This document shows positions 47,554-51,963 of a stretch of 64,000 nucleotides of DNA, in pieces. A model generated the notes under the pieces. The model ran no database searches, had not been told where the DNA came from, and worked only from the letters and a program-made list of their open reading frames with translations. The translations under genes were made by a program, and so were the position numbers. The stretch is from Fimbriimonadaceae bacterium (lineage in GTDB: Bacteria > Armatimonadota > Fimbriimonadia > Fimbriimonadales > Fimbriimonadaceae): the NCBI GenBank assembly GCA_019638775.1, contig JAHBTD010000002.1:1054001-1118000 (forward strand), read 5' to 3'. How positions within the stretch are numbered: the first letter of the stretch is position 1; the number at the start of each line of letters is the position of its first letter.

Positions 47554-48027
47554 TCAACCAGGTTTGAAGCTTGGCACGTTGTCGGCTTCACTTACGATCT
47601 CTTGGACGGGTACACCAAGTTCCGCTGCGAGGAGCTGAGACATCTCCTCCATATACTTCATGCTCCATGCCTCCGAACAAAGGCGGATGATCCCGTCATT
47701 GCCCGCGAGCACATAGGTTGGGACGGTCTTGCACCCGTACTTCCGGGACACCGCCAAATCCATGTCGATGGCTTGCGGCATCTGAATCCGATTCTCCTGA
47801 CAATAGGCGCTGGTTTCAGCTAAGCCATCTTGGCTCACTCCAACGATCACTGCTTCGGGGTAAGCACGAACCAATCGGTCGTAATATGGCATCGCGAAGC
47901 GGCATGTCGAGCAACCCGTGCGCCAGATGAAAGCGAGAATGGGTTTCCCGCCACGTGCGGCTTGGGAATCGAAGTCACCGAGTACAAAATCGATGAACGG
48001 CTGCCCTACCTCAGGCAAGTTACTCAT
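47554..48027 (-). CDS. Redoxin/peroxiredoxin-like thioredoxin-fold protein
   Basis: The 157-residue protein is a TlpA/AhpC-like redoxin without signal peptide. The active site is WRTGCSTCRFAMPYYDRL with a CxxC (CSTC). VIVGVSQDG, the cis-proline region KTVPTYVLAG and a QAIDMDLAVSRKYG helix complete the fold. Being cytoplasmic it is more likely a peroxide or disulfide reductase than a cytochrome-maturation factor. It overlaps the membrane-protein gene upstream by 8 bases. Confidence 0.87.
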   Translation of the reverse strand: MSNLPEVGQPFIDFVLGDFDSQAARGGKPILAFIWRTGCSTCRFAMPYYDRLVRAYPEAVIVGVSQDGLAETSAYCQENRIQMPQAIDMDLAVSRKYGCKTVPTYVLAGNDGIIRLCSEAWSMKYMEEMSQLLAAELGVPVQEIVSEADNVPSFKPG

Positions 48028-48346
48028 TCACTAAGTATGTCTTAGGTGTCTCTTCGGTTGTTTTGGGAGCGGGTGGCGGCAGGGTGTTGAGCTTCTGCGA
48101 AAGCTCGTCTACGGCAAGAGTCTGAGAGTGAAGCGCTTGCGTCAAACGCTCGACCTGAGCGGCAAGGGCGAGAACCTGGGGATCCTGAGACGAACTGTTT
48201 CGGTTGAGCAACTCAGCCATCTTTTGCTGATGCTTGGTAAGGATGTACACGATCGGGATCATAAACATCACGAAGCCCAAGACAAGGCCCAAGATCTCGT
48301 CACCCTGGAGATCAAAGGCGAACAGGTCCACCAGTTGATGTGTCAT
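48020..48346 (-). CDS. Small membrane/coiled-coil protein, copy B
   Basis: The 108-residue protein has one membrane helix at about 16-35 (ILGLVLGFVMFMIPIVYIL) followed directly by TKHQQKMAELLNRN and an amphipathic coiled-coil (VLALAAQVERLTQALHSQTLAVDEL), ending in a proline-rich tail. It is a paralogue of the gene at 48343-48654, sharing IPIV.ILTKHQQKMAEL. The layout recalls PspB (helix then charged coiled-coil), but I cannot claim that identity. It overlaps its paralogue by 4 bases. Confidence 0.8.
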   Translation of the reverse strand: MTHQLVDLFAFDLQGDEILGLVLGFVMFMIPIVYILTKHQQKMAELLNRNSSSQDPQVLALAAQVERLTQALHSQTLAVDELSQKLNTLPPPAPKTTEETPKTYLVNE

Positions 48347-48654
48347 CCCTGGTCACCGTTCTGGTTCTGCACACTGCCCGTTGATCCCGACCCAAGCCGT
48401 CTCTGATTCCCGGCGATTTCGTCGATCATCATCGTTTGCTGATGGACGAGTGTCTTGAGTTCGGCAACTTCCCTTCGCAACATGTCCATTTCAGGACTCC
48501 CTTGTATGTTCCGATTCCCGTGGATCAGTTCAGCCATTTTCTGTTGGTGTTTGGTGAGGATCGCAACGATAGGAATCATGAAGATCACTATCGGAACAGC
48601 AATCGCTGGCAGCATTTCCCACATGGAATCGGCAATGAGAGTATCGATATTCAT
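48343..48654 (-). CDS. Small membrane/coiled-coil protein, copy A
   Basis: From the ATG at 48654 the protein has 103 residues: a membrane helix (AIAVPIVIFMIPIVAIL), then TKHQQKMAELIHGN and a coiled-coil (MLRREVAELKTLVHQQTMMI), with a Gly/Ser/Gln/Asn-rich end. It shares the core sequence with the next gene and overlaps it by ATGA, so the two are made together and may form a hetero-oligomer. A GTG at 48660 is an alternative start. It begins 64 bases after the hisA stop. Confidence 0.78.
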   Translation of the reverse strand: MNIDTLIADSMWEMLPAIAVPIVIFMIPIVAILTKHQQKMAELIHGNRNIQGSPEMDMLRREVAELKTLVHQQTMMIDEIAGNQRRLGSGSTGSVQNQNGDQG

Positions 48655-48718
48655 AAACACCCACGGAATCCGTACATCCGTGAGGTCATTCTACAAAAAA
48701 AGTTGGATCGACATGGGT

Positions 48719-49453
48719 CTACAGGGCCTGGTGTCCGAGTTCTTGTAGGGCATTTGGCAGGTCGATGCGGCCTTCATAGATCGCCTTGCCGACGATAGCG
48801 CCCTCAAGATTGGGCAGTCGCAGGCCGTCTATCGCTCTCAGGTCTTCCACAGAACTCACTCCACCGCTTGCGATCACTTTGCCCGCAACCGTTTCGCAAA
48901 CTCGCTTCAGCATCGAGAGATTCGGCCCTTGCATCGCGCCATCTGTAGCGATATCCGTCACGATAAACCGCGCAACCCCCAAACCATCCAGCTGATGAAG
49001 GAAAGCGTAAAGCTCAATATCCTCGCCTTCCGTCCAACCCGAGACTTTCACGATCCCATCCCGAGCGTCAACACCGGCAATTGCTGCATTTCCAAGCTCG
49101 CCAAACGCATGTTCGACGAATTCTAAGTCTGTTGCGATGCGTGTGCCAAAGATCACGCGGGCAATACCGCTCTTTAGAATTTGCCTTGCGCTCTCAAGCG
49201 AACGAATGCCACCGCCAAGCTCAATCTTTGCCGGAGTCTCTTTAGCGATCCGTTCGACAACCGTTAGATTGACGGGACACCCAGCCTTTGCCCCATCCAA
49301 GTCGACAATATGGATCCATTGCGCCCCGGCGTCAGCAAAGCCCTTGGCCACGGCGACCGGATCGTCGGAATACTCTGTCTTTTGGGCATAGTCGCCTTGG
49401 GTCAGCCGTACGCATTTGCCCTCAAGGATGTCAATTGCCGGGAGGATCAGCAT
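48719..49453 (-). CDS. hisA: HisA, ProFAR isomerase
   Basis: The 244-residue TIM-barrel enzyme begins LILPAIDILEGKCVRLTQGDY with the catalytic first aspartate, has HIVDLDGAKAG, the phosphate-binding ELGGGIRSLE, the second catalytic aspartate region VTDIATDGAMQGPN and ASGGVSSVEDL. It isomerises ProFAR in histidine synthesis, the step before the HisF-HisH synthase. It overlaps hisH by 7 bases. hisF is not in the window. Confidence 0.96.
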   Translation of the reverse strand: MLILPAIDILEGKCVRLTQGDYAQKTEYSDDPVAVAKGFADAGAQWIHIVDLDGAKAGCPVNLTVVERIAKETPAKIELGGGIRSLESARQILKSGIARVIFGTRIATDLEFVEHAFGELGNAAIAGVDARDGIVKVSGWTEGEDIELYAFLHQLDGLGVARFIVTDIATDGAMQGPNLSMLKRVCETVAGKVIASGGVSSVEDLRAIDGLRLPNLEGAIVGKAIYEGRIDLPNALQELGHQAL

Positions 49454-50190
49454 GTGAGAAAGCTCCGCATGAGGTTCAGCCCCGCCTCTCCACTCTTTTC
49501 AGGGTGAAACTGGGTAGCCCAAATATTGCCCTTACGGATAGCCGATGCGAACTGAATACCGTAAGTTGTGCGACCAGCCACGTCGGCGACGTCGGTGCAA
49601 TCGGTGTACAGAGAGTGGACGAAGTAGAACTGGTCAATTTTGGATTTTAGATTTTGGATTTTGGATCGGCATGAAGGTTCTTGATATTGGGTATTGGGTG
49701 ATTCAAATGTCCATGATCGCTGATCGCCAACTGTTAATGGCTCTGAAATATCACCCATTGTTTCGCGTGTATCACTCCCTCTCCCTTCTCCTAATTCATC
49801 GTTCATCGTTCCGCGTTCATCGTTTTCAAACTCAACGTCGTTCCATCCGGTGTGAGGCACTTTGAGCCCCATATCTTTCGGGAAGTACAGTACTTTGCCC
49901 CCGACCAGACCAAGCCCCTTGTGCTCCCCATGCTCCTCGCTGGATTCAAAGAGCAGCTGTTGACCCAAGCAAATGCCGAGCAATGGCTGGCCAGATCGAG
50001 CAAAGGACTGGATATCGTCGGCTACAGAAGTGATGTGCTCCATCGCCGCGCCAAAAGCGCCGACTCCGGGGATGATGAGCTTTGTCGCCCCTTTGAGGGT
50101 GGGCTGCACCGAGCACTCAAAACCAAGGTGGCAAACCGCCCTTTCCACCGAACGGAGGTTTCCCATGCCGTAATCGAGAACGACGATCAT
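49447..50190 (-). CDS. hisH: HisH glutaminase subunit with a 64-residue insert
   Basis: The protein has 247 residues instead of the usual ~200. The class I glutaminase features are intact: GMGNLRSV, the oxyanion strand PGVGAFGAA, the nucleophile C74 in LGICLGQQLLFE and the His/Glu pair in FHPEKS (229-233). Between VPHTGWNDVEF and FYFVHS, residues ~122-185 are an insert rich in N/D/E/S/T, encoded by heptamer-type repeat DNA (49635-49822). In structures this position is a surface loop. HisH feeds ammonia to HisF for imidazole-glycerol phosphate. It overlaps hisB by 4 and hisA by 7 bases. Confidence 0.95.
   Translation of the reverse strand: MIVVLDYGMGNLRSVERAVCHLGFECSVQPTLKGATKLIIPGVGAFGAAMEHITSVADDIQSFARSGQPLLGICLGQQLLFESSEEHGEHKGLGLVGGKVLYFPKDMGLKVPHTGWNDVEFENDERGTMNDELGEGRGSDTRETMGDISEPLTVGDQRSWTFESPNTQYQEPSCRSKIQNLKSKIDQFYFVHSLYTDCTDVADVAGRTTYGIQFASAIRKGNIWATQFHPEKSGEAGLNLMRSFLTC
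49635..49822. repeat. Heptamer-repeat DNA inserted in frame inside hisH
   Basis: Four short arrays in 7-bp register lie in this coding segment: CAATTTT-GGATTTT-AGATTTT (then GGATTTT, GGATCGG) at 49635-49669; GATATTG-GGTATTG at 49683-49696; GATCGCT-GATCGCC at 49715-49728; TTCATCG twice, TTCCGCG, TTCATCG at 49795-49822. GGATTTT is the complement of the AAAATCC units at 35795, and GATCGCT/GATCGCC match 37072-37085. Confidence 0.85.
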
Positions 50191-50792
50191 CCAATCTGGC
50201 CTTTCGTCGAAGGCGCAGCTCTGCGCTCGGTTGGTATAGTTGCATCCCGCAACGCACGCCCGAATCCCTTAAAGATCGCCTCGCAAATATGGTGATCGTT
50301 CTCACCGGCGATCTGTCGAATATGAAGTGTCACGCCTGCGTTTGCCGTGATCGCCCTGAAGAACTCTTTCACACACTCTGTCGAGAGGTCACCAATCTTA
50401 TCGCGAGAAAATCGAACGTCAAAGTCGAGAAAACCACGACCACTAAAATCGATCGCCACAAGCACGAGGGCATCGTCCATCGGCGTGTGATTGCTGGCAT
50501 ACCTCTGAATCCCTTCGGATGCCGCGCTCGCCTCCGAAATCGCCTTACCCATCACAATTCCTACGTCCTCGACAGTGTGGTGGTCATCCACATTGAGGTC
50601 CCCCTCCGCTTTGACACCAAGATCAAGCTGGCCGTGAAACGCAAAGAGCTGTAACATGTGGTCAAAAAAGCCAATGCCGGTGCTGACGTCTTGCCGTGTG
50701 CCCCCGTCGAGATCGAGCACAACTTGCACGCGAGTTTCGTTTGTATCCCTGTCTAACTCGGCATATCGAACGCCGGTCGGCCCCTTGCTCAT
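50187..50792 (-). CDS. hisB: HisB, imidazoleglycerol-phosphate dehydratase
   Basis: From the ATG at 50792 the protein has 201 residues, the normal size of monofunctional HisB. The metal-binding repeats are clear: GIGFFDHMLQLFAFHG, DDHHTVEDVGI, DFDVRFSR, FFRAITANAGVTLHI and NDHHICEAIFKGFGRAL. It dehydrates imidazole-glycerol phosphate using manganese. It is the first gene of hisB-hisH-hisA and lies 84 bases from the diverging marR. The frame is open upstream to 50858, but that adds a non-conserved extension. Confidence 0.96.
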   Translation of the reverse strand: MSKGPTGVRYAELDRDTNETRVQVVLDLDGGTRQDVSTGIGFFDHMLQLFAFHGQLDLGVKAEGDLNVDDHHTVEDVGIVMGKAISEASAASEGIQRYASNHTPMDDALVLVAIDFSGRGFLDFDVRFSRDKIGDLSTECVKEFFRAITANAGVTLHIRQIAGENDHHICEAIFKGFGRALRDATIPTERRAAPSTKGQIG

Positions 50793-50876: not shown

Positions 50877-51365
50877 ATGGCTAATAATCAGACGGTTACT
50901 GCAGCAAGCGACGTCGGCGTTCAGGCGTACGTGCGCCTTGTAAGAGCTGCCGATGCTGTCTTCTCCGAAGTGAGCTCTGGGCTCTCTTCATATCAAATTT
51001 CGCCCACTCAGTTTTCGACTCTAAAGGCGCTCCGGTTTTCCGGTCCGCTTTCGCAGCGAGACATCGGGCGATACATTTTGAAAACGGGCGGCAATGTCAC
51101 CGTGATCGTAGACCAGCTTGAATCGATGGGGTTCGTTTCACGAATTCGAGATTCAGAGGATCGACGCGTGTGTTATGTAAACCTGACGGAGAAGGGGGAG
51201 AAGTTCTTTGATTCGGTTTATCCGACTTACCAAGAGAAGGTTCGTACGGCGATGGGACGCCTTACACCATCGGAACAGGCCGTGCTTGCCGAGCTTCTGG
51301 AGAAGCTGAAAAAGGGCAACGAGGTCCGGTCGGCGGTGGTCAACACTTCAAGGTCCGACAACTGA
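50877..51365 (+). CDS. MarR family transcriptional regulator
   Basis: The 162-residue protein has a MarR winged helix: ISPTQFSTLKALRFSGPLSQRDIGRYI, the recognition helix NVTVIVDQLESMGFV, and the wing RIRDSEDRRVCYVNLTEKGEKFF. Dimerisation helices flank the domain. MarR proteins bind palindromes near their own promoter and release on ligand binding. It diverges from hisB. Its 3' end faces a minus-strand transcript that starts at the c-di-AMP riboswitch. Confidence 0.93.
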   Translation: MANNQTVTAASDVGVQAYVRLVRAADAVFSEVSSGLSSYQISPTQFSTLKALRFSGPLSQRDIGRYILKTGGNVTVIVDQLESMGFVSRIRDSEDRRVCYVNLTEKGEKFFDSVYPTYQEKVRTAMGRLTPSEQAVLAELLEKLKKGNEVRSAVVNTSRSDN

Positions 51366-51663
51366 CGGACTCGGCGGCAATCGAAGACGTTCTTTCGGTT
51401 TGTTTTGCTTGCGAAAGAACAAGGTTCTCAAAATGTTGAGCCCCCTCTGGGCTTGAGGGGGCTTGCTCAACAGGAGGTGCCGAAAGCACCCCAATCCTTC
51501 GTATTGTCAATGGACCGGTTCATCCCGATCTCTGCCTTCTGACCTTAGAAAGACGGGCGCCTTCCAGGCCGCACGGCGATGTCCACATGTTCTTCTTGCC
51601 TTCACTACAGCTTTGTAGTTCCAGCACCGCAACTCATCCTGCTCAACATCAGTCTGAGTCATG
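51366..51663. other. Gap between marR and the riboswitch
   Basis: This 298-base stretch lies 3' of marR and, on the minus strand, directly downstream of the riboswitch. No frame of more than about 50 codons is found on the minus strand. It contains a GGTGC/GCACC hairpin (51477-51491) and the strong hairpin at 51435-51471. It may be a non-coding leader or RNA. Confidence 0.5.
51435..51471. terminator. Strong hairpin between marR and riboswitch transcript
   Basis: GCCCCCTC (51440-51447) pairs with GAGGGGGC (51455-51462); the stem is extended by GTTGA (51435-51439) and TCAAC (51467-51471) across a small bulge. It could end the marR transcript on the plus strand or the riboswitch RNA on the minus strand (where ATTTTG follows). 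No long U-run is present on either side. Confidence 0.55.
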
Positions 51664-51800
51664 GCGACTCTCGCTCGTCTACGGGGTTAGCTGTCGGGTT
51701 CAGGCCAAGAGTTGCCTTTGGAAGGTCCATTCCCTTCCGTTCACCCCAAAGGTTCGGTTCCCCCGCTCCCTCACGAATGAGGGACTAAACGTTGGCATTG
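51664..51800 (-). ncRNA. c-di-AMP (ydaO/yuaA-type) riboswitch
   Basis: Read on the minus strand, the sequence carries the hallmark blocks of the c-di-AMP riboswitch in order: CGTTTAGTCCC, a CCCTC/GAGGG hairpin, GAGCGGGGGAACC, TTTGGGGTGAAC, CAACTCTTGG and GAACCCGACAGCTAACCCCG. The closing P1 stem forms between CGTTTA (51786-51791) and TAGACG (51676-51681). A TACAAT -10-like box at 51812-51817 sits just upstream, fitting a start near 51800. These riboswitches usually switch off cell-wall hydrolase or ion-transport genes; no such gene follows here. Confidence 0.92.
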
Positions 51801-51963
51801 CAGCCTTACATATTGTAGTAGGGTTTTGAGTCGATTTAGTTCCCCAAAACGCGAACTTTATCGAAAAAACCAAACGTTGGGATATTTGGCAGATCAAGAA
51901 GGTCTCGGATCGGTAAAATCGGAAGGTTGCCGGAGCGCTCCGCTCCGCTCTCCAAGGATCGCC

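Follow-up and report, generated by a model that had tools for sequence, protein, structure and literature searches.

The c-di-AMP riboswitch located in the 64,000-nt stretch of DNA analyzed here (the window) very probably serves as the sensor of an autonomous noncoding RNA gene that possesses its own terminator. The fuller reading, in which such a gene exists and its RNA is in addition controlled by c-di-AMP, is likely. Comparison of related sequences established the aptamer, a conserved 3' module, the presence of no more than one copy per genome, and the independence from neighboring genes. The predicted gene most likely measures approximately 375 nt overall, with the c-di-AMP aptamer as its 5' half, whereas the 3' half would close with a conserved ACCUCCU block adjoining an intrinsic terminator. 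At this terminator, transcription is proposed to stop normally before the neighboring gene is reached. In this RNA, c-di-AMP would set either the amount of full-length transcript or the usability of the 3' module.

The earlier note on this locus had described a ydaO-type riboswitch with a TACAAT box just upstream, and both elements were recovered (Table 1). In the covariance search, positions 1-134 of the RF00379 model were matched over their full length with 80.6 bits (gathering score, 38; E 3.9e-17; cmscan). This was the sole gathering-level Rfam match across the 64 kb. The predicted aptamer is confirmed as a full-length RF00379 c-di-AMP riboswitch and as a real feature. A TAnnnT-like box about 16-23 nt 5' of the aptamer was found in most members of the class, while some have no clear one. 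The window's genome contains two further RF00379 copies, both heading small-protein frames. Since it also encodes one diadenylate-cyclase (DAC) domain, the bacterium can make c-di-AMP.

Table 1. Coordinates of the predicted RNA gene and of neighboring features within the window
Feature	Position	Strand	Basis or remark
-10 box TACAAT of the predicted RNA gene	51812-51817	-	sequence; transcription start inferred near 51805
c-di-AMP riboswitch aptamer (RF00379)	51661-51801	-	cmscan, 80.6 bits, full length
Linker of the RNA body	51481-51660	-	poorly conserved, no conserved ORF; leaders side by side, ORF and peptide tests
ACCTCCT block (anti-Shine-Dalgarno sequence), inside GCACCTCCTGTTGAG	51472-51478	-	in 36 family and 7 sister-family copies
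Terminator-like hairpin (51472-51434) and TTTT (51433-51430)	51430-51472	-	predicted RNA 3' end; hairpins vs random windows
marR, convergent neighbor, outside the unit	50877-51365	+	Pfam MarR, E 8.5e-13
hisB from likely start codon, outside the unit	50187-50792	-	own -10 box TACAAT at 50804-50799

The predicted RNA end near 51430 lies 65 nt before the 3' end of marR. In the window, the hairpin at this end was not called by a strict terminator scan and its U-run is just TTTT, so that some read-through towards marR is possible. As had been noted earlier, minus-strand frames before marR are short. The longest encodes 51 aa (51662-51507) and starts at the 3' edge of the aptamer; it matches nothing in Pfam, and since the fetched relatives contain no homologue, a short-peptide reading was rejected. 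A consistent ORF was sought across the leaders of the class and none was found. According to the ORF and peptide tests, and with downstream genes that vary, no conserved protein-coding gene is contained in the predicted transcript. An Rfam search with the RNA body returned nothing beyond chance level, and no Rfam family covers the body.

A common layout is shared by 36 or more copies of the window's family and by 7 of a sister family, consisting of a -10 box, the aptamer, a linker of 70-190 nt, the conserved ACCUCCU, a strong hairpin, and a T-rich tail. From the comparison of leaders, the shared 3' module can be described as (A)GCACCTCCT, followed 0-12 nt further on by the start of the strong hairpin and then by the T-rich tail. 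Among the riboswitch copies fetched, exactly one copy per genome carried this module in 40 family genomes, two of which (G007 and G022) are doubtful, and zero genomes had two such copies. The remaining riboswitch copies in the same genomes lack the module, and a good part of the genomes of the window's family have no clear copy of the RNA gene. The hairpin score exceeded the 95th percentile of random windows from the same loci in all 36 copies. A stem score of at least 22 together with 4 or more T among the following 10 nt was reached in 25 out of 36 copies versus 1 out of 720 random windows. As the hairpins were picked by pairing, single-pair covariation is not independent, and comparison with random windows was used as the control instead.

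The ACCTCCT sequence was invariant in a MAFFT alignment of 22 sequences. Since the copies were gathered using this motif, independent support comes from its genome-wide uniqueness. CACCTCCTGTTG has a single occurrence in the 4.3 Mb genome of the window, which is at the RNA site. GCACCTCCTGTTGAG was found once per genome in 16 out of 85 family genomes, in 15 of these 16 behind an aptamer, and the reversed pattern gave zero matches in the 85 genomes. An extra exact match in G063 is located on another contig, without an aptamer motif and inside overlapping long reading frames, and was discarded as chance. A small predicted hairpin closes ACCUCCU in ten closer copies, which is not true of all copies. 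When internal pairing was searched for in the window's family, neither ACCUCCU nor the 3' strand of the aptamer had a partner better than shuffles. An intramolecular lock on these elements, plausible by eye in some copies, was rejected for this family, as overall it did not surpass shuffles. In the leaders of the family no U-tract ligand-dependent terminator was found between aptamer and body.

In the sister family of the same order, exactly one copy of this layout is present in each of 7 genomes, while a contig end truncates an eighth copy. Its copies sit away from sucD and hisB. Directly 3' of the aptamer these copies have a U-tract terminator, one arm of which is complementary to the aptamer 3' strand. 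Duplex energies were about 3 SD below those of shuffles in most of the eight copies, with G040 and G042 giving weak values, and for G040 the script chose an earlier T-run. This layout predicts an OFF switch, with c-di-AMP turning the RNA off. In the ligand-bound state the aptamer would retain its 3' strand, allowing the early terminator to form. Without ligand this strand could pair with the 5' arm of the terminator and the RNA would be completed. In addition, an invariant GUCAGG and CCUGAC can pair around or over part of the ACCUCCU block in the sister family, and show no covariation because both are invariant.

Among 291 genomes of the phylum, the pattern of aptamer end, 180-210 nt and ACCTCCT was restricted to these two families. 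When 84,980 species genomes were scanned for the exact pattern, 16 matches were obtained, of which 15 were in genomes named Armatimonadetes or Fimbriimonas/Fimbriimonadales and one was in a Phycisphaerae bin (L232); the spacing limits of the scan patterns miss copies with shorter linkers. The Phycisphaerae occurrence was dismissed, since the contig is near-identical around the RNA to a Fimbriimonadales contig (G044) and hence probably misbinned. Apart from this one contig, the RNA appears to be confined to the order Fimbriimonadales (Armatimonadota).

In 16S rRNA, ACCUCCU forms the anti-Shine-Dalgarno sequence, i.e. the sequence with which the ribosome recognizes mRNAs. A conserved anti-Shine-Dalgarno sequence was present in 36 family and 7 sister-family copies, which had been collected with this motif. 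Tentatively, we prefer the blocking of strong ribosome-binding sites as the putative function of the RNA. The block would pair with strong Shine-Dalgarno sequences and thereby keep a limited number of mRNAs from being translated, perhaps among them the small-protein mRNAs headed by other c-di-AMP riboswitches. The full AGGAGGT is rare before ATG, with 79 occurrences in G000 versus 37 for the reversed control and 63 versus 55 in G075, and part of the excess in G000 may stem from contaminating contigs. GGAGGT was found in 33 out of 68 frames headed by other c-di-AMP riboswitches, compared with 14 out of 340 random windows. Owing to this enrichment these frames are candidate targets, although a strong Shine-Dalgarno site may also be what any translated riboswitch mRNA would have. 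Pairing of ACCUCCU with the riboswitch-headed mRNAs was no better within than between genomes. As neither same-genome co-evolution nor, in the window's family, an intramolecular partner was found, anti-Shine-Dalgarno action is a function that we infer. The stronger proposal, that the RNA is a c-di-AMP-controlled mimic of the 16S rRNA 3'-end silencing the few mRNAs with strong Shine-Dalgarno sites, the riboswitch-headed small-protein mRNAs included, is unlikely. If it were true, one riboswitch class would form a second-messenger circuit by acting in cis and, via a small RNA, in trans; strong sites of this kind seem to be rare.

The other c-di-AMP riboswitches (L033 and L034 in the window's own genome; L159, L171, L176, L182, L185, L189 and others) head short, probably helical proteins. 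Among these, certain types recur, e.g. MLTEFEVRRRM...RKARxLLR and MxLLxxxERxF..., with strong GGAGGT sites. Three of these riboswitch-headed short proteins were tested and matched no Pfam family. A multicopy family with AGGAGGTGC before the start codon in the window's genome was rejected as a candidate. It consists mostly of 70-aa membrane proteins and probably represents contamination, because the contigs are small and have a GC content of 0.56-0.60 versus 0.54 in the window. These near-identical 70-aa proteins (G000 contigs C27, C42, C46 and C13) resemble coat proteins of filamentous phages.

It is also conceivable, if rather doubtful, that the RNA is autonomous and that ACCUCCU has a structural or protein-binding role, the RNA acting by titration of a protein as Rli55 does. 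Such a role would fit the potential pairing between the invariant GUCAGG and CCUGAC, which involves part of the block in the sister family, and the lack of same-genome co-evolution with the candidate mRNAs. However, the heptamer is identical in two families despite differing flanking structures, which suggests that the letters of ACCUCCU themselves matter, and in the window's family the block has no internal partner.

In relatives of the family, the same riboswitch is often located beside a divergent sucD, and among the loci examined, those of 23 relatives have hisB on the same strand at a distance of 170-380 nt downstream. The window differs in that 802 nt separate the aptamer from hisB, with marR in between. 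The convergent orientation of marR and the position of hisB-hisH-hisA farther on, on the minus strand, agree with the earlier note, which had also considered a long leader reaching hisB. For this the synteny in the 23 relatives is genuine support. In such a leader of the hisB-hisH-hisA operon, c-di-AMP would set terminator read-through, a terminator between aptamer and gene being a usual expression platform, and in the window the insertion of marR would have left the leader long or broken. This is improbable in view of the -10 box that hisB itself carries beside its start codon, the hairpin with which the RNA itself is predicted to end, and the roughly 20 copies that keep the 3' module without a nearby hisB. 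The sister-family copies likewise are not near hisB. The hisB -10 box, often GGTATAAC, is found directly before the ATG with or without a riboswitch upstream, and in the window TACAAT lies 6 nt before the ATG. A conserved hisB downstream that lacks its own promoter, as expected for a his leader, was not found.

About half of the copies are located just upstream of hisB and about 20 have other neighbors. A dozen copies at or near sucD or at an unidentified site are followed by other genes, among them a convergent upp, a small membrane protein, a sigma factor, and an acetyltransferase. Seven more are found elsewhere in the genomes, e.g. before dnaK, a sugar kinase, a flagellin region, or a response regulator; names of neighbors other than marR, the his genes and sucD were read from translated sequences, without a family search. 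With a predicted RNA end near 51430, a separate -10 box for hisB, and about 20 copies beside other genes, the element in the window most likely serves neither as a leader of hisB nor as an antisense RNA to marR.

Another suggestion for the output of the riboswitch had been a transcript running antisense across marR. The convergent marR does lie only 65 nt past the predicted end and the short U-run allows some read-through, but the terminator-like hairpin precedes marR, and among the copies examined marR is the neighbor in this genome only, which makes such an output very improbable. A noncoding RNA, the remaining suggestion, gained support from the comparative evidence, namely the conserved 3' module and the varied neighbors. 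Deletion of a downstream gene, also raised earlier, was not borne out when synteny was checked in relatives, and hisB is still present here. A relic, or a switch whose protein-coding gene has been lost or is very short, is a highly unlikely reading of the element. In its favor, the 51-aa frame begins at the aptamer 3' edge and one relative (G063) lost the 3' part of the RNA at an insertion, but the aptamer reaches 80.6 bits, two families have retained the 3' module, the frame has no homologue, and the class has no consistent ORF.

Several further observations were made at these loci. In most relatives hisB appears to be leaderless or nearly so, with the -10 box about 6-12 nt before the ATG. 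The hisH product of the window (49447-50190) has 247 aa compared with about 196 aa in relatives, and the extra stretch near 49600-49860 resembles a low-complexity repeat inserted in frame. Two small membrane proteins encoded after hisA (48020-48660; ILTKHQQKMAE) resemble the product of a single gene beside the RNA in G017 and G094, in which no hisB was found. In G063, a 358-aa gene, Fic-like by eye, lies between riboswitch and hisB; the 5' linker of the RNA is kept and the end with ACCUCCU and terminator is lost. Within the first 450 bases of contig C18 in G095, close to the contig end, the RNA and sucD share a strand and the RNA is directed at sucD rather than away from it, which reflects either an inversion or an assembly artefact.

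Riboswitch-controlled noncoding RNAs have been described in Listeria. Rli55 carries a vitamin B12 riboswitch before a noncoding RNA that sequesters EutV through ANTAR elements (PMC8079631). It resembles the Fimbriimonadales RNA in having a 5' aptamer on a separate noncoding RNA and, as predicted for the sister family, ligand-dependent early termination. In contrast, Rli55 senses vitamin B12 and acts on EutV, no ACCUCCU module has been described there, and the window's family yielded no early terminator. Controlled by a vitamin B12 riboswitch, the long pocR antisense RNA AspocR (PMC8079631) likewise represents a noncoding output instead of an mRNA, whereas the Fimbriimonadales RNA is predicted to end before the convergent gene and its neighbor varies by genome. 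SreA, a SAM riboswitch RNA, acts in trans on prfA and also controls downstream genes in cis (PMC8079631). As with the Fimbriimonadales RNA, a terminated riboswitch RNA may here pair with other mRNAs and so act on them, but the ligands differ and the Fimbriimonadales RNA has no conserved cis target. None of the three Listeria RNAs senses c-di-AMP (PMC8079631). The c-di-AMP riboswitch of the Bacillus thuringiensis kdp operon is an OFF switch using an intrinsic terminator (PMC6488665). It belongs to the same aptamer family and operates as predicted for the sister family, although it controls a potassium-transporter mRNA in cis and not a noncoding RNA.

In the open literature, with most subscription papers outside the search, neither a c-di-AMP riboswitch controlling a noncoding RNA nor a riboswitch paper naming Fimbriimonas was found. 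To our knowledge, c-di-AMP riboswitches have been described as switches for protein genes. The Fimbriimonadales RNA is most likely a variant of the known riboswitch-controlled noncoding RNAs, here sensing c-di-AMP and standing alone. This reading accounts for an 'orphan' riboswitch without assuming gene loss. It also cautions that the next downstream gene, here hisB, is an unsafe guide to riboswitch function. If it is true, a trans-acting RNA output would be added to c-di-AMP signaling, and the Fimbriimonadales would offer a testable case of a riboswitch that has turned into an sRNA gene.
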